59,527 bases of DNA, taken from Acidimicrobiia bacterium. Its GTDB lineage: Bacteria > Actinomycetota > Acidimicrobiia > IMCC26256 > PALSA-555. The first letter of the stretch is position 1. Each line of letters starts with the position of its first letter. Below, one piece after another: positions 42,561 to 58,884 of the stretch. The stretch is from positions 1-59,527 of the forward strand of contig DASZJD010000076.1 in the NCBI GenBank assembly GCA_035948415.1, given 5' to 3'. A program made the translations under genes and the position numbers. Below the pieces are notes generated by a model, which had not been told where the DNA came from, ran no database searches, and worked only from the letters and a program-made list of their open reading frames with translations.

Positions 42561-43316
42561 TCAGCCCGTCGGCCGCCGCTGGAGCAGCAGGACGCAGTTC
42601 CACGTCGCGAGCTCTCGGAGCCCGGGTACTCGGAGGATCCAGCGCTGTGACGGGTAGTACCGCGGGTAGGCGTCGAGCAGCCGGAGACCGGGTCGCTGGC
42701 GCACGAGTCGAAGCACCTGACCGATGTGCGTCGGCCACAGCCGCTCGTAGGGGAGGTTCTTGCCCTTCGGCTCCCCGAGGACGGCCCGATAGGTCTTGAG
42801 CCCGAGTCGTGGACCGAGGTAGTGGAACGGGGTGATGGCGTGGCCGCCCCACGGCGAGTACCAGTTGGTCCAGCTCAGGTACGCCCAGGCGCCCGGTCGC
42901 AACACCCGCTCGATCTCGGCGAGGATCTCCGCCGGTCGGGGCGTGTGCTCGAGCAGGTTCGAGCAGAACACGCCGTCGAAGGTCGCGGCCGTGAACGGGA
43001 GCCGGGTCCCGTCCGAGACGAGCGCGCGCGGCAGGGCCGAGGAGCGCAGCGCGAGGTCCCGGCGATCCAGGTCGGTCGCCACGACCAGGGCGCCACGGTC
43101 GGCGAGGGCCGTCGCGTAGTAGCCCGGCCCGGACGCGAGGTCGAGGACCAGCGCCGAGCGGAGGTCCAGCGGGAACTGGGCGATGTCCCGGGACGCCAGC
43201 CGCGTGTAGAAGGGCTCGGGGTCTCGTCGCTCAGCGAGGAAGAGGCGGAACAGCTCCCGCCGCGAGACGTCGGCTCGACGTGCGGGTGCGCGCGCCTTCA
43301 GAGTTCGGTCGCTCAT
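42561..43316 (-). CDS. class I SAM-dependent methyltransferase
   Basis: A 251-residue methyltransferase. Motif I is ALVLDLASGPGYYATALADR, followed by GALVVATDLDRRDLALRSSA and FDGVFCSNLLEHTPRPAEIL, the type-11 signature. The C-terminal half, YLSWTNWYSPWGGHAITPFH then YLGPRLGLKTYRAVLGEPKG, is like methyltransferases found in glycan or lipid gene clusters. It opens the surface-related region, 95 bases upstream of gltX on the same strand. Substrate unknown. Confidence 0.88.
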   Translation of the reverse strand: MSDRTLKARAPARRADVSRRELFRLFLAERRDPEPFYTRLASRDIAQFPLDLRSALVLDLASGPGYYATALADRGALVVATDLDRRDLALRSSALPRALVSDGTRLPFTAATFDGVFCSNLLEHTPRPAEILAEIERVLRPGAWAYLSWTNWYSPWGGHAITPFHYLGPRLGLKTYRAVLGEPKGKNLPYERLWPTHIGQVLRLVRQRPGLRLLDAYPRYYPSQRWILRVPGLRELATWNCVLLLQRRPTG

Positions 43317-43412: not shown

Positions 43413-44576
43413 CTAGCGCGCGGGCAGTGAGTTGGGGAACGGACCCACGAAGTGCGGGCCGTAGGTCTGCCCGGTGAGCGGCGGTGGCGTGGTGAACGGC
43501 GACAGGTTCGTGCTGTAGATGATGGTCGGTGTCGCCACGCCGGGCAGCGTCCCGGTGTAGGCGTCGTAGGCGATGAGGCCGGGCGCGGCGGTCGACGCCA
43601 CGGTGCCGTAGTACCGCCACGGGCCCGCGGGAGACGGCGCCGTGAACACGCTGACGTCGTCGGTCACGTCGTTCGCGAGCTTGGCCGTGGCCAGGTACCC
43701 GGTGCCCCACGGCGTCATCCAGGGCTCCGCCCTCGGCCCAGGGCCGGCGTTCGGCACGGGGATCAGGGGCGGCATGTTGGTCCACTGCAGCGGGACGGCG
43801 TTGGCCTGGGTGGGAACCCAGGTCGGTCCGGCGCCGACGTCACCCCAGAACTGCCACGCCCCGGGAACCATGATCTGGCCCAGCGGCGCTCGGGCCACGA
43901 AGACGTTCCCCGCCTTTTCCCCGTAGAGGTAGACGTGCCCGTCGGCGTCCGCGAACGAGGTCGCGCCGTACGGCCGCGTGGCGCTGGTCGAGAAAGGAAG
44001 TGGCTGGACGCTCTGGAGCGCGAGGCCCGGGAGCGAGAAGGTGGCGACCTGCATGTCGATCACGGCGAAGCCGAGCTGGCCGGGGCCCGTGCGCTGGACG
44101 TGCCAGACGAACACGCGCAGGACGCCGTTCTCGACCACCGCTGACGCCGGCCAGTAGTACTGGCCGGCGGCCGGGTCGGGAATCAGGCTGCTCGGCGCCG
44201 ACGGCTGACCACCCTCGAGCGGGGTCAGACACGATCCCGCCTGCACGACGAAGCTGTTGTGGATCATCCGACCGTTGGGGTCGATGCCCCCGTTGGCGTT
44301 CAGGCTGCCGGCGTAGGTGTCGCCGAACAACCAGACCGTCCGCGCGTCAGGCAGGGTGACGGGGATCGCGGTGTCGGCCGAGAGCCACGCCGACGTCGCG
44401 TGCCGGAGCCCGTCGAAGAGGGCTCCGTAGTCGGCTGGTGAGCTCGGCGCGCTGGGGGCGCAGTACGTGACCGCCAGGGGCGCGACCCCTCGCGTCGGCG
44501 CCAGCGGCGCTCCGAGGCAGGCCGTCGCCAGCATGGCGACCGCCGCCGCGGCGGGGATCAGTCGGAGGCGGCGCAC
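43413..44576 (-). CDS. secreted lipoprotein with beta-propeller (DUF4185/DUF5005-like)
   Basis: A 387-residue exported protein. RLIPAAAAVAMLATAC is a signal peptide with a LATAC lipobox, Cys near residue 20. The rest shows repeated beta-propeller strands: ARTVWLFGDTYAGSLNANGG, QYYWPASAVVENGVLRVFVW, PYGATSFADADGHVYLYGEK and DDVSVFTAPSPAGPWRYYGT. WLFGDT and SPxGPW are the marks of the DUF4185/DUF5005 propellers, which resemble glycosidases of the five-bladed clan. Role unknown; outside the cell. Confidence 0.72.
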   Translation of the reverse strand: MRRLRLIPAAAAVAMLATACLGAPLAPTRGVAPLAVTYCAPSAPSSPADYGALFDGLRHATSAWLSADTAIPVTLPDARTVWLFGDTYAGSLNANGGIDPNGRMIHNSFVVQAGSCLTPLEGGQPSAPSSLIPDPAAGQYYWPASAVVENGVLRVFVWHVQRTGPGQLGFAVIDMQVATFSLPGLALQSVQPLPFSTSATRPYGATSFADADGHVYLYGEKAGNVFVARAPLGQIMVPGAWQFWGDVGAGPTWVPTQANAVPLQWTNMPPLIPVPNAGPGPRAEPWMTPWGTGYLATAKLANDVTDDVSVFTAPSPAGPWRYYGTVASTAAPGLIAYDAYTGTLPGVATPTIIYSTNLSPFTTPPPLTGQTYGPHFVGPFPNSLPAR

Positions 44577-45664: not shown

Positions 45665-47575
45665 CTACTCCTGCGAGCCGTTTTGTCCGGAAACGGGGGA
45701 TTTCCGGGCCCGAATCGCGCCCAGGCGGACGAGCACGACGGCCGCGGTGGCGGCGGTCGCCAGGTCGGCGGCCAGCACCAGCAGCGCCGGCCAGTACCAG
45801 ACCGGACCGCTCCCCGCCGGCAACCGGAGGAGCCCGGCCGGGGTGGCGCCGGCCGCGCTCCAGCCCCGCATCCACCCGTTCTCGCTGGGCCGGAACCAGG
45901 TCGCGGCTCCGGAGGCGTCGAGCCGCCCGAACGGCTGCACGAGGGTGCGGAGCCTCACGGTGCGGCCCGTCCGGTCCACGACGGGCCCCCGCCAAGCCCG
46001 AACCCGCCACAGGTCGAGGCTCGGACCGCCGACGGCGTGGACCAGGCCCGGATCGTGGGCGATGGAGTCGTACGACTGCCAGTCGACCTCATGGAGGAGG
46101 ACGACCCACCGGACCCCGAGCCGGGCGAGCTCTGACGCCACGGGGTCGCCGGCCCGGATGACGCCCAGCAGTCGGCGCGCCGTGGGCTCACGGGGGTCGG
46201 CCTGCTCGGGTCCCGACTGGAACTCGGGATCCGACGAGGACAGGACGTCGCCGCCGAAGTAGATCGGCACCGGGTTGAAGACGTTCCGGTCCCCGGCGAC
46301 CTGGAGCTGGAGGTACTCGTGCCACGGCAGGGCGAGCACCGTCCCGGGCCGGTGGACGACCGCGGTCCGAGCCCGGCTCCACTCGCTCGGGAGCGACACG
46401 GGATCCAGGCGTCCGTCCACGCCGAGGAGGCCGGGGCCGGCCAGCACGACGGCGATCGCGAAGGGGGCGGCCCACAGCACGCCTTCGAGCAGCCCGACCC
46501 GCAGGCGCGCCAGGCGGGCCGCGCCCAGCGCCGCGGCCGGGGCCATCCAGACCAGGTACAGGGCGAGGAGGCGCTGGCCCTCGCGCAGCGGGGCACCGAG
46601 CCTGGTGTCGGCGACCGCCGAGTACGCCACGCGCACGCCCGGCACGGCGCTGGCCAGCCCGAGCGCGACGCCCGTGAGGGCCAACCACGCCGCCCGTCGC
46701 CCCCACGGTCGGGGCAGGTCCCGGGCGCCGACCACCGCGAGGGCCCCGAGGGCCGCGCCGGCGAACGCGGCTCCGGTGCCGGCACCGCCGCCGACCGGGC
46801 CCACCTGCAGCCGGGGCTGCCAGAAGCCGTAGCCGGCGAGGACGCGCAGCCAGCCGCCGAGCCCGGAGGCCTGGGTCGCGAACGCGGACGAGTGCGTGAG
46901 CCGGAGGGGCTGGGAGAGGAGGATCGCGCCCGGAACCACCCAGGGCAGCTGGGCGAGCACGTAGGCGCCCGCGACCCCCGGCGCGCGTCGACCACGCGAT
47001 CCCAACACACCGACGGCCACCACGAAGAGCCCGAGCACGCCACCGAACTGGCCGGTGCATCCCAGCGCCGCAGCCCAGAGAAAGGTCCGCCGGAGATCCT
47101 CGTCGGGCCGCAGGAGCGTCGGCAGCGCCCACGGCAGGATCGCCATCGCCACGACCAGGGCGAGGTCGCCCACGCCGAGTCGGGTGAGGACGAACGGGCT
47201 GAGCGCGTACAGGAGGGCGGCGCCGGAGCGTGCGATCGCCGGGGCGCCCTCGGCCAGCTTCCACGCGCCGGCCGACGCGGCCGCGAACGCGGCCAAGGCC
47301 ACCAGGGTCCAGATCCGCGACCCGCCGACGACCGTCGACGCCCAGGCCAGGGGAACGGTGAAGGGGACCCGCCGGGGCAGCTCGGGTCCGAGTCCCCAGA
47401 CCCCGCGTGGCACCGGAATGCGAGGCGTGACGACGAGGTCCAGGCTCAGGAGCGAACCGCCGCCGCCGAGGGCGGGGCCGAGCGCGACGGCGCCGGCCGC
47501 CAGCCCCAGCAGCCACGGGAAGGCTTGACCCAGCGCCGGCCGGGAGCGTCGGGGCAGGCCCAGCCTCATCGCCAC
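45665..47575 (-). CDS. large polytopic membrane protein (YfhO/AftD-like)
   Basis: A 636-residue membrane protein with about 12 hydrophobic helices in the first 400 residues and a soluble part after them. The region GTVLALPWHEYLQLQVAGDR, then ELARLGVRWVVLLHEVDWQS, resembles the soluble part of the AftD-like protein at 50051 (RLGVRWIVLRNDVAWE there), so the two are distant relatives. A last helix at the C-terminus ends in a basic tail. Such proteins are polyprenyl-phosphate-sugar-dependent glycosyltransferases or glycan-lipid partners. Start GTG 47575 or ATG 47569. Confidence 0.7.
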   Translation of the reverse strand: MAMRLGLPRRSRPALGQAFPWLLGLAAGAVALGPALGGGGSLLSLDLVVTPRIPVPRGVWGLGPELPRRVPFTVPLAWASTVVGGSRIWTLVALAAFAAASAGAWKLAEGAPAIARSGAALLYALSPFVLTRLGVGDLALVVAMAILPWALPTLLRPDEDLRRTFLWAAALGCTGQFGGVLGLFVVAVGVLGSRGRRAPGVAGAYVLAQLPWVVPGAILLSQPLRLTHSSAFATQASGLGGWLRVLAGYGFWQPRLQVGPVGGGAGTGAAFAGAALGALAVVGARDLPRPWGRRAAWLALTGVALGLASAVPGVRVAYSAVADTRLGAPLREGQRLLALYLVWMAPAAALGAARLARLRVGLLEGVLWAAPFAIAVVLAGPGLLGVDGRLDPVSLPSEWSRARTAVVHRPGTVLALPWHEYLQLQVAGDRNVFNPVPIYFGGDVLSSSDPEFQSGPEQADPREPTARRLLGVIRAGDPVASELARLGVRWVVLLHEVDWQSYDSIAHDPGLVHAVGGPSLDLWRVRAWRGPVVDRTGRTVRLRTLVQPFGRLDASGAATWFRPSENGWMRGWSAAGATPAGLLRLPAGSGPVWYWPALLVLAADLATAATAAVVLVRLGAIRARKSPVSGQNGSQE

Positions 47576-47868
47576 CCTCGCCTCCGGGGCCCGCCGCTCC
47601 GCTGCGCGGTCACGCTCGGCCCCCCAGCGGGCCGGCTGGACACTGCCCGCCGGTGCCCCCGCAGGTTTGCCATCGGCCGAGATCCGTGAATACTCTCACG
47701 GCGGGTGGTGACTGGGGCCCCTGGGCCCCACTCTGGGTAAAGGGAGGCATCCCCCTTGGGGGGCACTGGGGCGACGCGAACCGCGGGGACGGCGGTAGTG
47801 CGTGGGCGATTCCTCATCGCGCGCCCTGACCGCGCCGCCGGCCGCCCCGGGCGCGAGAGCGGACACGC
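47576..47868. promoter_or_regulatory. divergent control region with three hairpins
   Basis: The 293-base spacer divides the membrane protein gene and the glycosyltransferase-sulfotransferase gene. It holds three inverted repeats within 80 bases: CCGTGA-6-TCACGG (47684-47701), TGGGGCCCCTGGGCCCCA (47713-47730) and CCCCC-TT-GGGGG (47751-47762). They could be an operator, attenuator or RNA leader. I could not match them to a named riboswitch. Confidence 0.5.
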
Positions 47869-50049
47869 GTGGTAGCCGAACCCGAAGGTCGCGGCTGGGC
47901 GGTCCCGATCCCCCTCCACCCCGCGTGGGGCGCGGACGGGCAGCGCCGGCACGGGGGCACGGTCCGCGCGCTCATCATCTGCTCGGAGCAGCCACCGGTC
48001 GAGTCGGGTGTGGCCCGCGCCATCCATCAGCTGTCGGCGGGGCTCAGCGCCCGCGGCCATTCGATCGACCTCCTCACCGGCGGCGACGCCCGATACCTGA
48101 ACCTGGGCGAGTTCCGTTTCAACACCCTCGCCGCGCAGTGGCCCGCGGTCCGAGCCGCGCTCGCCGACTACGACGTCGTGAACATCCACGGCCCGGCTCC
48201 GACCATCAGCGACGCCTACCTCGGGCTGCTTCGGACCGTGCCCGCGGCGCAACGGCCTCGGATCCTCTACACCCATCACTTCTCGATCGACTTGGCCCAG
48301 TGGAAGACCGCCTCCCGCCTCTACGAGAACTTCCACCGGCACATCGCTCGCCTCGCCGACGAGATCGTCGTCCCGACGCCCTCCTACCACTCGATGCTGA
48401 GCAGCCGCCGCGGCCCAGCGGTCCGCCTGATTCCGTGGGGCGTCGACGTCGAGCGGTTCGCCGGTGAGCGGCTCATCGCCCCGTACGACGGCTCGCGCCC
48501 CCTGCGGGTGCTCTTCGTCGGGCAGATGCGGCCGTACAAGGGCATCGCGGAGCTCGTCCAAGCCGCCGCGGACGAACCCGACCTCGAGCTCACCGTGGTC
48601 GGGAAGGGCCGGCTCGAAGACCACTTCCGGGCCATGGCGACGTCGAGCAACACCACCTTCGTCGGGTCGGTCACCGACGATGTCCTGACCGACCTCTATC
48701 TCAGCCATGACGTCGTCGTGAAGGCCGCGACGAGCCGGCTCGAAGCCTTCGGGCTCGTGCTGCTCGAGGGCATGGCCGCGGGCTGTGTCCCGGTCGCGTC
48801 CGACCTGCCCGGGGTGCGTGACGTCGCCGTGGCGACCGGGCGCGTCGTGCCGGCCCGTGACGTCGAGGGCCTGCGGACGGCGCTCCTCCGCCTGGCTCGC
48901 AGCCCGGCCACGGTCCGCGACCTCCAGTCGCGTTCGCGCGCCGAGGCGGCCCGGTACAGCTGGGAGTCGACCGTCGACGCCTACGAACAGGCCTTCGTGC
49001 ACCCGATCCCCAAGACGATCGACCTCACGCGGCACGGTCGCGAGGGCGGCCTGGCGTCCGAGGAGCCGATCAAGGTCCTCTACATCGGTGGGACCGGGCG
49101 CACCGGGAGCACCCTGATCGACCGGATCCTCGGGCAGTACGAGGGGATCTTCAACGCCGGCGAGCTGGCCTTCGTCTGGCGGTACGGCCTCCGGGAGGGC
49201 GGACGATGCAGCTGCGGCGAGCTGCTGGCGGACTGCGCCGTGTGGCAGAAGATCTTCGTCCACGCGTACGGCGGGGTAGGGGCCGTCGACGCCGACGAGA
49301 TGGTGGAGTTGCGGCGCCGCTTCAACTCGAAGCACCTCCCGCTCATGCTCACCAAGGGCATCCGCGGCCGTCTGCTGAGCCGGCTGGGGCCGTTCCCCGA
49401 GCGAGTCGAGCACCTGTACCGGGCGATCCACGCGGTCACCGGGAGCCGGGTGATCGTCGATTCCTCGAAGGAGCCGCATTACTCCTACATCTTGAAGTCA
49501 CGGCCGGGTCTCGACGTGTACTTCCTGCACCTCGTTCGTGATCCGCGAGCCATCGCGCTGTCGTGGCGCCGCAAGCGCCGGGAGCAGGGCATGGGCGGGC
49601 GCGTGTTCATGCAGCGGCGGAGCTGGCTCACCAGCGCCGCGTACTTCGATGTCTCGAACGCCGCGGCCGACGTGATTTGGGGCGGGTCGTCGGACCGCTA
49701 CCTGCGGGTTCGCTACGAGGACTTCGTCTCGCGTCCCGCCGAGACGCTGGATGCGATCGGGGCGTTCGTCGGGGAAGCCCTCGATCTGGATCAGCTGCTG
49801 GTCGACGACCAGGTCGCCCTCGAGGTGACGCACTCGGCCTGGGGAAATCCGAATCGCTTCCAGCACGGCCTCGTCCGCATCACCCCCGACTCGGCGTGGA
49901 AAGAGGCCTTGCCGGTGTGGCGACGGCTGACGGCGACCGCCACGACGTTCCCGCTCATGCGTCGCTACGGGTACCCGATCCGCGTTTCGGGGACCATCTC
50001 GGAGAACGGCGCAGCCCGGCTCCGACCGCGCGTCACGCAGCCCGACTGA
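47869..50049 (+). CDS. glycosyltransferase family 4 - sulfotransferase fusion protein
   Basis: A 726-residue two-domain enzyme. Residues 33-390 form a GT4 (GT-B) glycosyltransferase: ALIICSEQPPVESGVARAIH, the donor region LRVLFVGQMRPYKGIAELVQ, and the EX7E motif Glu292-Glu300 in LEAFGLVLLEGMAAGC. Residues 400-700 form a sulfotransferase: the 5'-phosphosulfate loop is IGGTGRTGSTLIDRIL (406-421) and the 3'-phosphate site runs from Arg557 to Ser565 in LVRDPRAIALSW. One chain could thus add a sugar and sulfate it, using a sugar nucleotide and PAPS. No signal or membrane helix, so cytoplasmic. GTG 47869 is the start. Neighbours are surface-glycan membrane proteins. Confidence 0.88.
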   Translation: MVAEPEGRGWAVPIPLHPAWGADGQRRHGGTVRALIICSEQPPVESGVARAIHQLSAGLSARGHSIDLLTGGDARYLNLGEFRFNTLAAQWPAVRAALADYDVVNIHGPAPTISDAYLGLLRTVPAAQRPRILYTHHFSIDLAQWKTASRLYENFHRHIARLADEIVVPTPSYHSMLSSRRGPAVRLIPWGVDVERFAGERLIAPYDGSRPLRVLFVGQMRPYKGIAELVQAAADEPDLELTVVGKGRLEDHFRAMATSSNTTFVGSVTDDVLTDLYLSHDVVVKAATSRLEAFGLVLLEGMAAGCVPVASDLPGVRDVAVATGRVVPARDVEGLRTALLRLARSPATVRDLQSRSRAEAARYSWESTVDAYEQAFVHPIPKTIDLTRHGREGGLASEEPIKVLYIGGTGRTGSTLIDRILGQYEGIFNAGELAFVWRYGLREGGRCSCGELLADCAVWQKIFVHAYGGVGAVDADEMVELRRRFNSKHLPLMLTKGIRGRLLSRLGPFPERVEHLYRAIHAVTGSRVIVDSSKEPHYSYILKSRPGLDVYFLHLVRDPRAIALSWRRKRREQGMGGRVFMQRRSWLTSAAYFDVSNAAADVIWGGSSDRYLRVRYEDFVSRPAETLDAIGAFVGEALDLDQLLVDDQVALEVTHSAWGNPNRFQHGLVRITPDSAWKEALPVWRRLTATATTFPLMRRYGYPIRVSGTISENGAARLRPRVTQPD

Positions 50050-50050
50050 G

Positions 50051-53000
50051 TCACGTGCCCGCGCGAATGGGCGGGCTCGACGCTGCTGGGGGAAGGGGAC
50101 CTCGGCGCCGCCCCAGCCCCGCGGTCGCGAGCGCGGCGAGGACGACCACGAGGCAAGGGACGGCCAGCCATCGCAGCGACCGATCCCCGGCGACGTTGAC
50201 GACGATCCCGAACCCGAGCGCGAACACGCCGATCGGCGCCGCCCAATCCCGCCACGCTCGCGGCGGGCGCGGCCGCGGGGCGAGCTGCGCCTCACTCGGA
50301 GCCCGAGCGCCCGCGCGCTCGGCGAACGACAGGGTCGCTATCGCCACCAGGAAGATCAGGCCCGCGAGCCGGCCGACGAAGGCAGCCGCCGGGTGGTTCC
50401 CAACGAAGCCTGAGACCGCCGGGCTGGCATCGAGCGGAGACTCGAAGACCGTGAGCAGGGCCATGAACGCCACCCCGAACAGGGCATAGAGCCCTACCAG
50501 ACGCGCGTCGTAGACCGCGATCAGCGCCGCCAGCCCGGCGAGCAGCGCGCCGCCCAGACCACCGAGGAGGTATCCGACGGTTGCGAGGACGAGCGCGCGC
50601 GCCACGAGCGCGCCGACGGAGTCCGCGACCGGCACGTGCTCGCGTCGATCCGGTGACGGGCGCGACGACACCATCTGGCTCTCGGCCCTCCGTCGCACGC
50701 TCGCACCGACCACCAGGAAGATGCACAGGGCGGTCGTCCCGCCGGTGATCGCGAGCGCGAGCTCCCAGAGCCGCTGGGGGCGATAGGAAGCCACGACATC
50801 GATGGCCCTGGCGTGCGGCAGCTGCCAGCCGGTCAGCGTGTCGATCGACTGGGCCGAGCCGAGGGCGTGCCCGCTCGCCGACGCGTGCCAGTCGGCGCTG
50901 AACGACTGGCCGATGACGAGCGACCCGCCGTGTGGCGCCGCGATCTGCAGGTGGAGCCGAGTCGGTGACTCGGACAGCACCCGGACGGTTGCGGCTGGCG
51001 CGCTCCGAGTTGCCGGGGCCGGAGCCCCCGCCTGCAGCGCCACGGTGCTGATCACGCCGTCGGCTCCCGGTCGAGAGTCGAGTCGGTGTTGACCGCGAGC
51101 GAGCGAGACCGGGCTGCAGGCCTGGAAGTCGACGGGCCTGCCCCCGATGAGCACGAGGCTGCTCCCCGTCAGGCGCACGGCGACGGGACGCCCGTCGACC
51201 GTGAGCAGGCGGTCGGTACACCCGTCTGGGCTCAGCAGGCCGCTCCGAGCCAGCGCGACCGCGTCGGCCGGCGTGGACGAGTCGAGCTGGAGCGTCCCCC
51301 CCACCTGGTAGGAGCGCGTGCCGAGGGTCGTGAAACTGCGATGGACCGCGAGCTCGGTGTCCGACGCTCCGTCTCCCACGAGACGTTGGAACGAGAACGT
51401 TAACGGAGCCCCCGCGAGCGCGCGGCTGAGGGCCGGACTCGCGGTGGCGGCTTTCGCCAGATCGGTCGGAGCGGCGATCGTCTCGGTGAGGTTAAGCCCC
51501 GGGATCGTCACCTCCGAGAAGCCGACGCTCCCGCCGAAGCCCAGCACGGCTCGGATGCGCACCTCGAGCGAGCGCGTGGTGCGCGGCTTGAACGTCGCCG
51601 TCGTCGACGAGGAGGTGAACCCGACCGGCACCGTGGTCCCGTCCGAGAAGCGCAGCGTGGCGGCGGTCACGCGTCGTCTCCCGGTCGAAGCCCGGGTCAG
51701 ATCGACCCGGCTGATCCGCTCGGGGCGCTTGAAGTCGACTCGAACCCAGGCGCCGACTGGGCTCGACAACCCGCCCACGTACCACGCGGTGTTCGGGTCA
51801 CCGTCGAAGGCGTTCGCGGGCCGCACCCAGGTCTGGAACGGATTGACGACGGGATTGCCGTACCTCGACGCGACGATCTGCGTCGCGTCCGCGTACGTCG
51901 CCAGGCTCTGGCTGCCGGGACGATGGAAGAGGTCATCCGGCGCCCTCGTGAGCTGCTCGTTCGCGGCCAGCGTCGGCGACACGAAGTTCCGCAGGGTCGT
52001 GACCTGGGTCACCTGTCGGCGATTGGTGTCAGTAACGACGACACGGGCCCCTGCGGCCAGGAGGGGGCGGAGCGTGCCCGCGGAGCTCGCCGCCGTGTAG
52101 CGCACCGCGCCGACCGCCGCGAGCGTGCCGTCGCTCGAGAGCGCGGGCCACGCCTCGCCACTGCCGGAGAGCAGCAAGGTGGGCTGCCTCGCGACCACCT
52201 GCACCGGCGAGCCCGCGCCGCGGACCTGGTACACCTCGACCGGCGGCAGGCGCCCTTCCCCGAGCTGGCGCGCGGTGACATCGCCGGGTGTGATGACGTT
52301 CTGTCCGGGTCGGCCAAACGTCGCGACTCGGTGCAGCGTGGCGTCGGCGCGGAGCGCGTTGAGATCGCTGGGCCGCGGGGCGTCGCTGGTCTCCCAGGCG
52401 ACGTCGTTCCGCAGCACGATCCAGCGGACCCCGAGCCGCTGCGCCACCGCGGCGACCGAGCCCGGCAAGTAGGTGCGAGACAGCGCAGCGTCGTCCAAGG
52501 CCACGAGCAGATCCGCCGCCTGTCCCAAGCCCTGCGGCAAGGACTCACGGACGAGATGGGGCCGCGCGAGCAACGCGTCCAAGATGTCGTCTCCGACGTA
52601 CCCCCAGCGATACCGGGTCCGTGTCGTCCCAGGCAACACCAGCACCCGGCCGTCGCCAGGTTGACGATCCAGCCACGCGGTCGCGGAGCGCCAGTACTGC
52701 GGGACCGCCGCCACCCGGTTCGTCCGGGAGTACAGCCGGCCGGTCCAGAAGGGGAACGAGGCGACGCCGATCACGATGACGGCCAGGCCGAGGCCCAGAA
52801 ATCGGATCCAGAATGCCGACCGCGGCGGCCGCCGGCGACCAAGCCATCTCGTTCCGTCGATGACGCCGACCGCGAAGAGCGCGCTGAGACCCATCCCGAG
52901 CCCGGCGCCGGCCTTGTACGTGTCTCGGAACGAGCGGATGACCAGGCTGTGGTCGTATCCGAACTGCAGGACGCGACCAGCGATCGTGAGATGGTCGGTG

Positions 53001-54007
53001 GGATAGAGCCCGACCATCAGGACGAGGGCGAGCACCGCCATCCCGCCGAACACGAGCCGTGGCCGCCATCGCGAGCGCCAGACCACGGCGACCGCAACCA
53101 CGGGAATCACGCAAGTTGCGGCGACCACCAGCGCGTTCGTGAAGTAGGAGATCGACTCCGGGCGGGCCACACCGAGCGACGTCCGCAGGTACGACAGCCA
53201 GTTGCCGAGTCCACGCCAGCTCTCCGCCCACGTCGAGTGGCTGCTCACGGTCCTCGGAAGCTCCGTGGTCCCGAGGTTCTCGGCGAAGCCGCTCACGTTG
53301 AACCGGAGATAGATCAGGGTCGCCGACGTGATCGCGAGTGTCAGCACCACCATTCGACCGAGGAAGCCGAAGAGTGCCCGCGCTGGCACGGACCGCGTCA
53401 CCACGCCGAGGTAGATCGCGGTAGGGAGAATCGGGAGGGCCGCGTAGACGAGCGACGGCGTGTTCAGACCGCCCATCGTCAGGACGGCGAGGGCGAACGC
53501 GGCCGCCCACGGCCACTGGTGCTCAGGCTCGCGGACACCACGGACGAACGCCATGAGCAGCCACGGAGCGAGCGCGTAGTGGACGAAGAGCCCCGACGGC
53601 ACCAAGAACTGTGTGGTGAACGGGCTGAACATGTAGAAGAGCGCGGCCAGCAAGTGCTCCGGACCGAGCCGCGGCCGAAAAAGCCGCAGGACCTGCACCA
53701 TCCCGAGCCCCGCGATCACGAGGTACGTGCCGTGCAGCATCCGCTCGCTGAGCGCGGGCGAGAGGCCGACCGTCCGCAGGAGCGCGAGGTACGAACCAAT
53801 GACGGGCGAGAAGAACGGAGCCGGCCGCCCGACGCCGCGCACGGAGTCCCAGAGCCACTGCTGTCGGGCGATGTACCGCTGGGCCCCCCAGTACTGCTCG
53901 AAGCGGGCATCGGCGATGTACCAGCCCGGCGAGTTCGTGAGGACTGCGAACGCGGCTGCCGCGACCAGGACTCCGCTCGTCGTCCAGAACCGCGCGCGCT
54001 CGGTCAT
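50051..54007 (-). CDS. aftD: AftD-like alpha-(1->3)-arabinofuranosyltransferase with F5/8-type C domain
   Basis: About 1318 residues from ATG 54007 (a longer GTG start at 54088 is possible). The N-terminal 400 residues carry many membrane helices, beginning FWTTSGVLVAAAAFAVLTNS, with the GT-C loop PGWYIADARFEQYWGAQRYI. A soluble middle part follows (RLGVRWIVLRNDVAWE). Residues 720-830 form a discoidin-like carbohydrate-binding domain (NAFDGDPNTAWYVGG, then VRVDFKRPERISRVDL). More helices close the protein. This is the AftD/DUF3367 layout, which adds arabinofuranose to wall polysaccharides from decaprenyl-phosphoryl arabinose. The exact sugar here is inferred. Confidence 0.83.
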   Translation of the reverse strand: MTERARFWTTSGVLVAAAAFAVLTNSPGWYIADARFEQYWGAQRYIARQQWLWDSVRGVGRPAPFFSPVIGSYLALLRTVGLSPALSERMLHGTYLVIAGLGMVQVLRLFRPRLGPEHLLAALFYMFSPFTTQFLVPSGLFVHYALAPWLLMAFVRGVREPEHQWPWAAAFALAVLTMGGLNTPSLVYAALPILPTAIYLGVVTRSVPARALFGFLGRMVVLTLAITSATLIYLRFNVSGFAENLGTTELPRTVSSHSTWAESWRGLGNWLSYLRTSLGVARPESISYFTNALVVAATCVIPVVAVAVVWRSRWRPRLVFGGMAVLALVLMVGLYPTDHLTIAGRVLQFGYDHSLVIRSFRDTYKAGAGLGMGLSALFAVGVIDGTRWLGRRRPPRSAFWIRFLGLGLAVIVIGVASFPFWTGRLYSRTNRVAAVPQYWRSATAWLDRQPGDGRVLVLPGTTRTRYRWGYVGDDILDALLARPHLVRESLPQGLGQAADLLVALDDAALSRTYLPGSVAAVAQRLGVRWIVLRNDVAWETSDAPRPSDLNALRADATLHRVATFGRPGQNVITPGDVTARQLGEGRLPPVEVYQVRGAGSPVQVVARQPTLLLSGSGEAWPALSSDGTLAAVGAVRYTAASSAGTLRPLLAAGARVVVTDTNRRQVTQVTTLRNFVSPTLAANEQLTRAPDDLFHRPGSQSLATYADATQIVASRYGNPVVNPFQTWVRPANAFDGDPNTAWYVGGLSSPVGAWVRVDFKRPERISRVDLTRASTGRRRVTAATLRFSDGTTVPVGFTSSSTTATFKPRTTRSLEVRIRAVLGFGGSVGFSEVTIPGLNLTETIAAPTDLAKAATASPALSRALAGAPLTFSFQRLVGDGASDTELAVHRSFTTLGTRSYQVGGTLQLDSSTPADAVALARSGLLSPDGCTDRLLTVDGRPVAVRLTGSSLVLIGGRPVDFQACSPVSLARGQHRLDSRPGADGVISTVALQAGAPAPATRSAPAATVRVLSESPTRLHLQIAAPHGGSLVIGQSFSADWHASASGHALGSAQSIDTLTGWQLPHARAIDVVASYRPQRLWELALAITGGTTALCIFLVVGASVRRRAESQMVSSRPSPDRREHVPVADSVGALVARALVLATVGYLLGGLGGALLAGLAALIAVYDARLVGLYALFGVAFMALLTVFESPLDASPAVSGFVGNHPAAAFVGRLAGLIFLVAIATLSFAERAGARAPSEAQLAPRPRPPRAWRDWAAPIGVFALGFGIVVNVAGDRSLRWLAVPCLVVVLAALATAGLGRRRGPLPPAASSPPIRAGT

Positions 54008-54791
54008 CGGCGGGCCCGGCGGCCTCGACGGGGCCGTCCCCGCCGGGGGACTCCTTACGTCCCGGGCCGTCTCCCACGCCACGCGCACGTCAGCGCCTCA
54101 CCGCTGCCGTCGCCCGCCGGCTCGGTGGCAGGACACTGCTTGGGGAGCCAGGCCCGGCATCAGCGCGTCCAGGCCGTCGTCCGGGTGACGAACGCCGCCG
54201 CGAAGCGCCGTCCCGTCGCCGAGTCGGCAACGGCGTGTTGCGACCAGCCGGTCCCCGCCGGCGTCGAGCGGTTGCGCCGGCGGCGTTTGCGGCGCGTGAC
54301 GCGGACCCTCTGATCGGCGGCCCATAGTTGTGTACGCGCTGTCAATGCGTGCCCATCGCCTCGATAGCCCAAGAGTCGGCCCAGCCCACCGAGCCCCACC
54401 AACCGCAGCATCTGCACGACGACGTTGCGGGCAGACAAACAAGGATACCGACTGCCCCGTGACGTTGCGGAGCCGAGCGCACGCGGTCGCCGAGCAGTGA
54501 CGCTCCCCGCACACTGTGGTTGCACGTCTCGGCCGCGACCGCTTCGTCAAGGCCGATCCTCGCTCCGGTCACCGCGTGCTCCGCACGTGGATCCGACGTC
54601 GCCGGATCGTGGATCAGCGCTCCCGGACGGGATCGACGAGCGGCCGACGGTCCTGCCACCGGCTCGGGCGAGCGGCGGTGAACAGCGGCCGGCGCGCCAA
54701 CGGCCTCGGGCGGGGTCGCCGCGATCACGTGATTCGTCGAGCGATCGACCGAACGGATGAACGCGCCGGCGCCGCCGTCAGGGCATGACCG
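54008..54791. other. gene-free region, about 780 bases, between two minus-strand genes
   Basis: No reading frame here has the composition of its neighbours: the frames on both strands are rich in Arg, Ser and Cys and lack ribosome binding sites. The part from 54320 to 54470 is less GC-rich. A minus-strand TTGACA occurs at 54345-54340 without a good -10. A decayed gene, an RNA gene or a long leader of the AftD-like gene are possible; I see no decisive signal. Confidence 0.5.
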
Positions 54792-55622
54792 CTAGGTGCG
54801 TGCTGTCTTGGGTGGGCGCCGCCGCGTCGTAGGAGTCCGCGGGCGCGGTGCCGTGCCAGCAGGCCGCGGGGCGGGAGCTGGCGGTGCGGGCGCCGCACCC
54901 GACGCGACGAAGTTCACCCAACGAGCGTTGCGCCCACCGCTGCCGAACGCGACCAGGCCCGCATACGGGGCGGTCTGCAGCAGGGTGTTGTTGGCAAACG
55001 ACTTCCGAAGCTGCCCGTTGACAGCGACGTCGATCTCCGTCCCACGCAGCACGACGCTGATGGTCGTCTGGTTTTGAACCGGCACGAGGCCAAGGCGCCC
55101 GATCGAGGCCAGCTTCCCGTGGTCGACCCGCAGAACACCCCAGGTCGCGAACCTCGGAACGGCGACGATGGCGTAGTAGTTGAGGATGTTCTGATACCGG
55201 AACACCAGCCCGGCGCTCTCGACCATCCGGGCCAGCGTCACCTGGACCGTGCCGTCCCCAGTGTGCATGTCCGCCACGGCCAGGTTGTAGCGGCGGGATG
55301 CCGGAGTGGCGACGTACGCCTCTCCGCCCTTCACGCCCCAAGTCCCGACCCGTGGGATCCACCGCTTGCCGCTGTCCGCCTGGCCGAGGGTCGTTGGGCT
55401 GTCCGCTCGCCGGAACGTGTCGAACACTCCGAACGAAAGGTTCTGGACGTGCGCGACTGGGGTCGACGTCTGACCGGTGGCCACCAGCGTGAGACCGACG
55501 CTCACCCCGGCGACGACGACCGAGACGAGCAGCAGCGCCAGGATCCTTCTCGCGCGTGACGACGCTGCGTACGGGCGGTCCGCGGCCGCGCGGCCGATGC
55601 CATCGAAGCTTCCCTGGTTCAC
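54792..55622 (-). CDS. membrane-anchored LamG/concanavalin-like domain protein
   Basis: A 276-residue protein from GTG 55622, which overlaps the flippase stop (GTGA) and has AAGGAA just upstream. One membrane helix lies at RRILALLLVSVVVAGVSVGL (residues 25-45). The outside part is a jelly-roll lectin-like domain: DTFRRADSPTTLGQADSGKR, WGVKGGEAYVATPASRRYNL, SAGLVFRYQNILNYYAIVAV and FGSGGRNARWVNFVASG. The end is a Pro/Arg/Thr-rich tail that may reach into the wall. It probably binds glycans and works with the coupled flippase. Confidence 0.75.
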   Translation of the reverse strand: MNQGSFDGIGRAAADRPYAASSRARRILALLLVSVVVAGVSVGLTLVATGQTSTPVAHVQNLSFGVFDTFRRADSPTTLGQADSGKRWIPRVGTWGVKGGEAYVATPASRRYNLAVADMHTGDGTVQVTLARMVESAGLVFRYQNILNYYAIVAVPRFATWGVLRVDHGKLASIGRLGLVPVQNQTTISVVLRGTEIDVAVNGQLRKSFANNTLLQTAPYAGLVAFGSGGRNARWVNFVASGAAPAPPAPAPRPAGTAPRPRTPTTRRRPPKTART

Positions 55623-57013
55623 CGGTTCCTTCCGGGTGCGAAGAGCGCGGGTCGGGTCCGTTCCACGTCGCCGAGCCGCGATCCGGCGAGGGGCTCGAGG
55701 CTGAGCGCGACGCGCGACGCCCGGACGCCACGGCGGATCTGACTGGCCACCGAGACCACGATCGCGATGCACGCCGCCACTGCGTTTCCTTCGAGCCAGG
55801 CTCGAGCCGCGCTGTCCGCGGCGTTCTGCGTGGTCAGGAACACGGCGGGCACGAGCACCGCCAGCGCAAATGCGACGCTGATCGCCACCGTGGAGGCGGA
55901 GCTCTCTCGGATCCGCGCCTCGGCGAGGAGCGTCACCGTCACCGCCCACGGCACCGTAGCGAGGACAAGGATCGGCAGCAGGTGCGCGGCATGGGAGTAG
56001 GCGGCCCCGTAGAGCGTCGTGACCGAGTCCGCGCCGAGGTAGGCGATCACGGAGCAGAAGCCGGCGAAGCCGAGCGCGATGCAGAGCGTGACTCGGAGCT
56101 GCGGGGCCAGACGCGCACCTTCCTTGCTCCCCTCGGACAGGAGCGCCTGGCTGACCATCTGCACACTCAGCAGCACAACGGCCATCACACTCCACGAGAT
56201 GTAGAAGACCGCGTTCGTCGCGGGTCGCACCTTGAGCAGGACGATCACCGGCAGCACGAAGAACGGGGCTTGGATCGCGAGCTGGCCAAGGTAGTTGACC
56301 GAGGCGTACCGAAACACGCGCGCCGCATTCGCCGGTAGCGGCAGCAACGCGTGCCACACGCGGCCCTGGAGGGCCAACGCGCCGACGAGGCCCGACGCTG
56401 CCTGTGTCCCCCCGACGAGGACGAGGAGCCAGAGGGCACGGTCGCCGAACGGATGGAACCACACAAACGGCATCCGGACCACGGACACCAGCAGCGCCCG
56501 ACCAAATACCCAGCCCCAACGTCGAAGGGCCATGAGGCGCATGTCGACGATCAGCGTGAAGGACATCCCCGTCACGATGATCGCGAACAGCGCGAACCCC
56601 AGTGCGTGACCGCCAACGAGCAGCGGAGCCGCCAGCGAGTGCGGGGCGAACAAGAAGAACACGGCCGTCCCGACGACCGAGGTCGCGGCCGTGTACAGCA
56701 ACCCCCATTCCAGGAGGACGCGTGTGTCTCGAGTGCGGTCGTGCGCGTATCGGGCGACAGCGACGGGCAGGCCCATGCCCGTGGCGTAGTTCAGGAACTG
56801 AGCCGAGGTGAACAGGGCGGAGGCGCGGCCGACGGTCGTCGTCGAATCGACATGCGCAGCGACGAGCCAGAACACGAAGCCGCCGAGGGCAGCGGTCACG
56901 GTGGCGGCGATCAGCCACGCCGATCCCGCGATGAGGTGACGATGTCGGACCGAGCCGCGGGCGAGCCGCTGGCTCACCCGACCGCGATGCGGCGTTCTAG
57001 GCAGGACGCGCAT
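55619..57013 (-). CDS. polysaccharide flippase (Wzx/MOP-type)
   Basis: A 464-residue membrane protein with about 12 helices, beginning HLIAGSAWLIAATVTAALGG, with the charged loops VARYAHDRTRDTRVLLEWGL and ALLSEGSKEGARLAPQLRVT typical of MOP/MATE-superfamily polysaccharide exporters. These turn lipid-linked oligosaccharides to the outer face of the membrane. It is translationally coupled to the LamG-like protein gene and sits in the same region as the AftD-like and sulfotransferase genes, which supports a role in surface glycan export. Confidence 0.82.
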   Translation of the reverse strand: MRVLPRTPHRGRVSQRLARGSVRHRHLIAGSAWLIAATVTAALGGFVFWLVAAHVDSTTTVGRASALFTSAQFLNYATGMGLPVAVARYAHDRTRDTRVLLEWGLLYTAATSVVGTAVFFLFAPHSLAAPLLVGGHALGFALFAIIVTGMSFTLIVDMRLMALRRWGWVFGRALLVSVVRMPFVWFHPFGDRALWLLVLVGGTQAASGLVGALALQGRVWHALLPLPANAARVFRYASVNYLGQLAIQAPFFVLPVIVLLKVRPATNAVFYISWSVMAVVLLSVQMVSQALLSEGSKEGARLAPQLRVTLCIALGFAGFCSVIAYLGADSVTTLYGAAYSHAAHLLPILVLATVPWAVTVTLLAEARIRESSASTVAISVAFALAVLVPAVFLTTQNAADSAARAWLEGNAVAACIAIVVSVASQIRRGVRASRVALSLEPLAGSRLGDVERTRPALFAPGRNR

Positions 57014-57417
57014 CGGAACGAGTCGGCGCGTCTACGTCTCCATCTACACGGTTCACCGAAGCCCGGCCCTTCTTCGTCGACGAGTGCCGCACCGGCCCCG
57101 CCGGGCGCCAGAGCGCGTCCGCCCTTTCGCTCTGGTGGCGCCGTACCTTACGCCATCCTCCTGCCTTCCCGGAACGGAACTCGGCCGCCGCGGCACATCT
57201 CGGCCGTGCCCTGTGGACGCGCGTGATCGCACGAGAGCTCAGCGATTGTGGCGCTGAGAACTGGTCGCCGACACGGTCGTCGTGACGCTGATTCTCGAGT
57301 CGCGCCGGCAATACTGAAGCCCGCCGGGTTTCGCCCGGGTTGACCAGGATCGCTAGCGTCGGGAATGCGTCGGTGGAAGCGCCCTCGTCGGCGGCGGGGC
57401 CGACGAGGAGTGAGACC
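57014..57417. other. gene-free divergent spacer, 404 bases
   Basis: Separates the flippase gene from the phospholipase C-type gene. It should hold both promoters. Frames that cross it are shadow-like. Apart from the GAGGAG ribosome binding site of the right-hand gene I recognise nothing. Confidence 0.5.
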
Positions 57418-58884
57418 GTGCGACGAGACATCACGAAGCTCGGGATGGCAGCGCTCGTGACCGCATTGTGCTGGGGCGGCTCGAGTGCGGCCGCGACGAC
57501 GGGATCGCGGGCCCCGACGGGCATCCACAAGATCCAGCACGTCGTCGTGATCATGCAGGAGAACCGCTCCTTCGACAGCTACTTCGGCACCTATCCGGGC
57601 GCGAACGGCATCCCGATGCGGCGCGGCGTGCCCACCGCGTGCCTTCCGGACCCGAAGTCCTTCCAGTGCGCGAAGCCCTACGTCGACCACTCCGACGTGA
57701 ACGGCGGTGGCCCCCACGGGCAGCAGAACGCGGTCGCCGACATCAGCTTTGGCCAGATGAACGGCTTCGTGGCCGAGGCGCGGGCGGCGAGCACGACCTG
57801 CGGGGACCCGAACAACCCGGCGTGCGCCCACTCTGGCAACGGGCAGGACGTCACGGGCTACCACACCGGGAGCGACATCCCCAACTACTGGCGCTATGCG
57901 AAGGACTTCGTGCTCCAGGACCGCATGTTCGAGCCCAACGCCAGCTGGAGTCTCCCCGAGCACCTGTTCCAGGTCTCCGAGTGGTCCGCCGTCTGCCCCG
58001 ATCACAACCCGGCGCACTGCGCGAACGCCAACCAGACCCCGGGCCTCCCACCGGACTTCCAGAACCCCCAGCACCAGCCCCGCCCGGACCCGATCTACGC
58101 GTGGACCGACCTCACGTACCTCATGCACCGGCAGAACGTCTCGTGGGGCTACTACGTGACCCCGGGAAGCGAGCCCGACTGCCAGAACGATGCCGCGATT
58201 TCGTGCGCGCCGGTGCGCCAGGCCTCGAACACGCCCGGGATCTGGAACCCGCTGCCCTACTTCGACACCGTTCGGAACGACCAGCAGCTTGGGAACATCC
58301 GATCGGTCAAGTCCTTCTACAGCGCGGCCCAGGCTGGGCGGCTCCCCGCGGTGTCCTGGGTGACGCCGTCAGGACAGCTGAGCGAGCACCCGCCGTCCCC
58401 GGTGAGCTTCGGCCAGTCATTTGTGACGAGCATCGTGAACGCGGTCATGCGGAGCCCGAACTGGAAGTCGACCGCCATCTTCCTGTCCTGGGACGACTGG
58501 GGCGGCTTCTATGACCACGTCGTCCCACCCACCGTCGACCAGAACGGCTACGGCCTCCGAGTGCCCGGCCTCGTCATCAGCCCGTACGCCAAGAAGGGCA
58601 TGATCGACCACCAGACACTGTCGTTCGACGCCTACGTCAAATTCATCGAGGACGACTTCCTCTCCGGCCAGCGGCTCAACCCGCTCGTTGACGGCCGGCC
58701 CGACCCCCGCCCCACCGTGCGCGAGAACGTGCCGATCCTCGGCAACCTGACGAAGGAGTTCGACTTCAGCCAGTCACCGCGCTCGCCCGTGCTGCTGCCC
58801 GTCCATCCCAAGACCACCCTCACCGGCACCCCCCGGGCCCGTGGACTCTCTGCGGCCGCTCTCGCCGGCGATACCGACGGCTGA
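57418..58884 (+). CDS. secreted phospholipase C / phosphoesterase (PF04185 type)
   Basis: A 488-residue exported enzyme. GTG 57418 is chosen: AGGAG lies seven bases upstream and it gives a signal peptide [20 protein letters not shown] ending near SAAA. The active site starts at Glu48-Asn49 in [20 protein letters not shown], and later metal or catalytic blocks are [20 protein letters not shown] and [20 protein letters not shown], with [16 protein letters not shown]. This is the bacterial phospholipase C / acid phosphatase (AcpA) family, which splits phosphodiesters or phosphomonoesters outside the cell, often for phosphate gain. An upstream in-frame start at 57340 is unlikely. Confidence 0.88.

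Follow-up and report, generated by a model that had tools for sequence, protein, structure and literature searches.

To our knowledge, sulfated surface glycans of bacteria are little known beyond cyanobacteria, rhizobia, and mycobacteria. Synechocystis produces the sulfated exopolysaccharide synechan from its xss cluster, in which sulfotransferases are encoded alongside glycosyltransferases and a flippase (PMC8205485). In Corynebacterineae, the mtrP-mmpA locus brings together genes for a methyltransferase and a membrane protein of the MmpA family, with a protein of the AftD family close by, and both MmpA and AftD function in the assembly of envelope glycolipids and arabinan; MmpA has been described as lacking homology to proteins outside corynebacteria and mycobacteria, with the exception of AftD (PMC8698533). 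At the level of the enzyme, the PAPS sulfotransferases of the Sulfotransfer_3 family include those of CurM and Ols, TPST, and NodH, the last being a member of PF13469 (PMC11625862). Two successive glycan-modifying domains in one chain, one of them a PAPS sulfotransferase, are also found in the animal deacetylase-sulfotransferase enzyme, where the partner is a deacetylase rather than a glycosyltransferase. A described fusion of a glycosyltransferase (GT) with a sulfotransferase (ST) was not found in the literature.

The window analyzed here, a stretch of 59,527 nucleotides from an Acidimicrobiia bacterium (contig DASZJD010000076.1), contains such a gene, which is a variant within known enzyme families, GT4 and Sulfotransfer_3. 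Like the cluster of Synechocystis, the locus places sulfotransferase, glycosyltransferase, and flippase functions together, whereas the GTs and STs of the xss cluster are separate genes and neither AftD nor MmpA is reported there (PMC8205485). The reading favored here, at a probability of about 0.6, is that the gene encodes a soluble cytosolic bifunctional enzyme derived from one cluster by fusion, in which the GT4 domain would extend a lipid-linked envelope glycan by a sugar and the second domain would sulfate the same glycan from PAPS in a separate reaction.

The open reading frame at 47869-50049 (+) yields a translation of 726 amino acids with zero internal stops, consistent with the single uninterrupted GT4-sulfotransferase chain proposed in the first-pass annotation, which had opened the frame at 47869. 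The first 31 codons score 0.03 per codon on codon usage, approximately zero, and the proteins of GT4 orthologues align to the fused protein from residue 32 (numbering, here and below, from 47869); for these two reasons translation probably begins with the GTG at 47962, giving a gene at 47962..50049 (+) of 695 amino acids. In each block of 150 nucleotides, the frame of the fused gene outscores the other five on codon usage, the last C-terminal block being weak and still best in this frame. A reverse-strand frame of 637 amino acids (47566-49479) lies below the forward frame's score throughout and is apparently a shadow ORF. The linker of 24 codons between the two domains (48997..49068, +) shows coding-like usage, scoring 0.34 per codon against 0.37 and 0.32 for the two domains, with a GC3 of 0.96, and this similarity excludes a non-coding junction between the halves. 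In alignments, the linker is closely bordered by the ends of the GT4 orthologues on one side and by the starts of the ST orthologues on the other; the fusion thus contains both enzymes at full length.

The GT-B/GT4 domain (47962..48996, +) matches Pfam Glycos_transf_1 (E 4e-22) and Glyco_transf_4 (E 4e-15), both above the gathering cut-offs. Glu292 and Glu300 of the EX7E motif, as well as the Arg/Lys of the RPYKG donor-phosphate loop, are invariant in an alignment with the GT4 orthologues of related clusters, to which the GT4 half is 40-46% identical (genomes G257, G762, G803, and G891). The closest solved folds identified with Foldseek are those of MshA, BshA, and PimA, indicating a GT-B fold, with low to moderate model confidence in the N-terminal half of the GT domain. 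The domain thus resembles the GT4 glycosyltransferases of the PimA, MshA, and BshA type in fold, EX7E motif, and Pfam composition, and differs from this type in the C-terminal ST domain of the fused protein; identity to PimA over the structural match is approximately 27%.

The sulfotransferase domain (49069..49977, +) passes the Pfam gathering cut-off for Sulfotransfer_3 (PF13469, E 2e-11), and its AlphaFold model has a mean pLDDT of 90. Among 17 aligned ST sequences, Arg411 in the PAPS loop, Thr415, Glu432, Arg557, Ser565, and His655 are invariant, and in a profile alignment Glu432 lines up with the second Glu of the GEE motif of TPST2, which we take to be the TPST2 catalytic base. Foldseek matches include CurM, Ols, TPST1/2, and other PAPS sulfotransferases, with the CurM and Ols sulfotransferases the best matches in both sequence and fold, at an identity of just 17-20%. 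In its PAPS-loop Arg, 3' Arg/Ser, conserved Glu and His, and fold, the domain therefore resembles the CurM/Ols ST, TPST, and NodH, whereas it differs from them in being fused to a GT and in belonging to an actinobacterial envelope-cluster subfamily with additional conserved Cys residues. The earlier description of both domains as intact is upheld by these Pfam, alignment, and fold comparisons, since no catalytic residue is lost in GT4 (relative to orthologues) or in the ST (17 sequences), and every residue position that had been cited was confirmed. A supply of PAPS in this genome is likely, as judged from its gene content, because CysD, CysN, and the APS kinase CysC are encoded in one run on contig C63.

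The model of the full chain consists of two domains and a linker of low confidence (pTM 0.52), which in the modeled chain is probably flexible. How the two domains lie relative to each other is not confidently predicted, so the model gives no hint of substrate channelling. The proposal that the sugar is added and sulfated in one step found no support: the two chemistries occupy two active sites with different donors, which must act in sequence, the linker is of low confidence, and relatives manage with separate proteins.

The relationship between the two halves becomes apparent from three Acidimicrobiia genomes, G257, G762 (CALKPY010000059.1, Acidimicrobiales), and G891, in which one cluster contains the GT4 and ST orthologues as two separate genes with 4-8 kb between them. 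MmpA-like, AftD-like, flippase, and methyltransferase genes are common to these clusters and the window, and a sulfatase gene is present in all three. The order in G891 is MmpA-like (-), GT2, GT4, AftD-flippase (one ORF), LamG-like, methyltransferase, ST, Methyltransf_24, and sulfatase; that of G762 is almost the same, and G257 carries a rearranged set. In G891, the AftD-like protein and the flippase are fused in a single ORF of 1891 amino acids (L217:8353-14028, +). The GT4, flippase, and AftD genes are also present in G803, whose contig stops inside AftD, so that any ST there is out of reach, and an MmpA-like gene, a flippase, and an ST are present in G204. In the ST tree (140 rows), the ST of the window groups with those of G257, G762, and G891 with an SH-aLRT of 99, followed by G204 and G170. 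On these comparisons of sequence and gene order, the fused gene is the product of a fusion between two members of one cluster. In other genomes the orthologues of its halves are individual genes of one and the same cluster, which indicates a functional link between GT4 and ST. That both partners come from this one cluster speaks strongly for a single pathway and also argues against a chimeric assembly; very probably the two reactions are parts of a shared pathway, whose predicted product is a sulfated surface glycan.

The gene content surrounding the fused gene agrees with this context. An AftD-like GT-C protein with an F5/8-type C domain (50051..54088, -) is convergent with the fused gene, their stop codons adjoining, and is accompanied by a LamG-like cluster protein (54792..55601, -; start uncertain) that is 35% identical to a G891 cluster protein and had no match in a Pfam search. 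A flippase-like membrane protein (55619..57013, -), whose G891 homologue matches Polysacc_synt weakly and below the cut-off, and a SAM methyltransferase (42561..43316, -), 54% identical to the G891 cluster methyltransferase, are also present, together with a polytopic membrane protein of the MmpA superfamily (45665..47575, -; NF053599, E 9e-51). The envelope-glycan neighborhood anticipated in the first-pass annotation is accordingly recovered, with AftD-like, flippase, LamG-like, MmpA-like, and methyltransferase genes common to the clusters of relatives; aftD-like and flippase genes also accompany the separate GT4 and ST genes in G257, G762, and G891. Neither a sulfatase nor a DPM-like GT2 is found beside the cluster in the window, a point that counts against the favored reading. 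Additionally, a DUF4185-like protein (43413-44576, -; below the Pfam cut-off) lies within the cluster region, and a phosphoesterase of the PC-PLC/acid phosphatase superfamily (57340-58884, +) adjoins it. Genes at 36000-59500 have a GC3 of about 0.81-0.94, compared with mostly 0.92-0.99 for most genes before 34 kb, and this region of lower GC3 may be acquired DNA.

Similarity to the mtrP-mmpA locus lies in the proximity of a methyltransferase, an MmpA-type membrane protein, and an AftD-type protein; it differs in that no ST is described in that locus and the MmpA match in the window falls below the curated cut-off. The protein at 45665-47575 scores 173 bits against NF053599, below the curated cut-off of 210, and is thus a superfamily member rather than MmpA proper. 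A test of whether the GT4 of the window is orthologous to the GT4 beside mmpA in genomes with a true MmpA gave no support for such a relationship. Since the MmpA-like gene lies below the cut-off and this orthology was not found, only a resemblance to the locus is claimed. As a separate observation, the protein at 45665-47575 (-) is a member of the MmpA superfamily outside Corynebacterineae, to be set beside the published statement on MmpA homology (PMC8698533), and above-cut-off mmpA genes are convergent with an ST of the window's ST family at L237 (G550) and L239 (G521), in other actinobacterial families.

A search for the same fusion elsewhere gave a divided result: an orthologous fusion was absent from the order (58 genomes), class (395), and phylum (396) samples, and other GT4-ST and GT28-ST fusions were found. 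The full fused protein used as a query against genome contigs gave no match, and the loci were retrieved with an ST alignment; nor did any plasmid record cover 80% of the fused protein. The ST was not found in G037, the one genome of the same genus examined, so the fusion is unconfirmed in a close relative, and this precise arrangement has been seen in just one MAG. Of the 178 distinct ST loci compared, 32 are immediately preceded by a GT gene and 16, the window gene among them, are in-frame fusions to a GT; only selected GT types were searched, and the sample consists of relatives of the window protein, so these fractions are not unbiased. In addition to the window gene, the fused loci comprise one GT4-ST gene in G204 and 14 of GT28 type (PssE/WelK-like). 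The G204 gene (L263:50-2752, +) has Pfam GT4 and Sulfotransfer_3 matches both above cut-off, and its GT and ST are each just about 29% identical to those of the window; judged from this divergence, the two fusions are apparently independent. The GT28 (Alg13/PssE/WelK-like)-ST fusions, for example at L214, L215, L216, L226, L227, L228, L180:6446-8053, L273, L274, and L090, are spread over families f11, f59, f67, and f84 and conserved within f59; at L203 and L204 the GT28-like part is below Pfam detection and apparently degenerate. Long frames upstream of other STs (L037, L088, L007, L071, and others) were rejected as fusions, the in-frame stretch being GC-rich shadow reading, as were seeming fusions in Micromonospora and Rubrobacter, which are neighboring genes in different frames. 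A broader proposal is offered tentatively and with reservation: GT-PAPS-sulfotransferase fusions might constitute a recurrent, undescribed bifunctional class in Acidimicrobiia and other actinobacterial lineages, coupling glycosylation and sulfation in the assembly of sulfated, methylated envelope glycans with AftD-/MmpA-like machinery.

These occurrences also bear on how the fusion is to be understood. It may merely secure co-expression, with each domain acting on a substrate molecule of its own within a common envelope pathway; direct coupling is evidently not needed where the GT4 and ST genes stand several genes apart (G891, G762, and G257), and a low-confidence, probably flexible linker fits such an arrangement. 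However, the repeated adjacency or fusion of STs with different GT types, GT4 and GT28, favors a shared substrate, and co-expression as the whole explanation is considered rather unlikely. The same independent GT4-ST fusion in G204 argues against an artefact of assembly or sequencing that joined two neighboring genes. Such an error would account for the presence of the exact fusion in one MAG only, yet it conflicts with the in-frame coding signal through the linker and with the derivation of both halves and both flanking genes from the same cluster lineage, leaving it very improbable.

A further question concerns the acceptor of the sulfate, which might be a lipid or a small molecule instead of a glycan, given that CurM and Ols, the best matches of the ST in sequence and fold and its closest relatives by sequence among solved structures, act on polyketide or olefin-synthase intermediates. 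Their low identity to the ST reduces the weight of this comparison, and the ST family occurs in a glycan-assembly context: its neighbors in other genomes include flippases (Polysacc_synt), GT4, Wzz-like proteins, sulfatases, methyltransferases, and GT28. A non-glycan acceptor is thus regarded as improbable.

In the favored reading of a bifunctional enzyme acting on one glycan, we infer the activities, the order of steps, the shared substrate, the identity of the sugar, and the sulfated product as follows. The GT4 domain would transfer a sugar from a nucleotide donor onto a lipid-linked glycan at the inner face of the membrane, with the retention expected for the family. In a reaction of its own, the C-terminal domain would sulfate a hydroxyl of this glycan, with PAPS as the donor and Glu432 as the probable base. 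Both reactions would precede export, after which the flippase would move the glycan outward, and the AftD-like and MmpA-like membrane proteins would extend or deliver it outside.

The fused chain is a possible starting point for the enzymatic synthesis of sulfated sugars. For the biology of these organisms, the fused gene and its separate orthologues name one GT and one ST that should share a pathway, and whether deep-branching actinobacteria sulfate their AftD-type envelope glycans therefore becomes directly testable.
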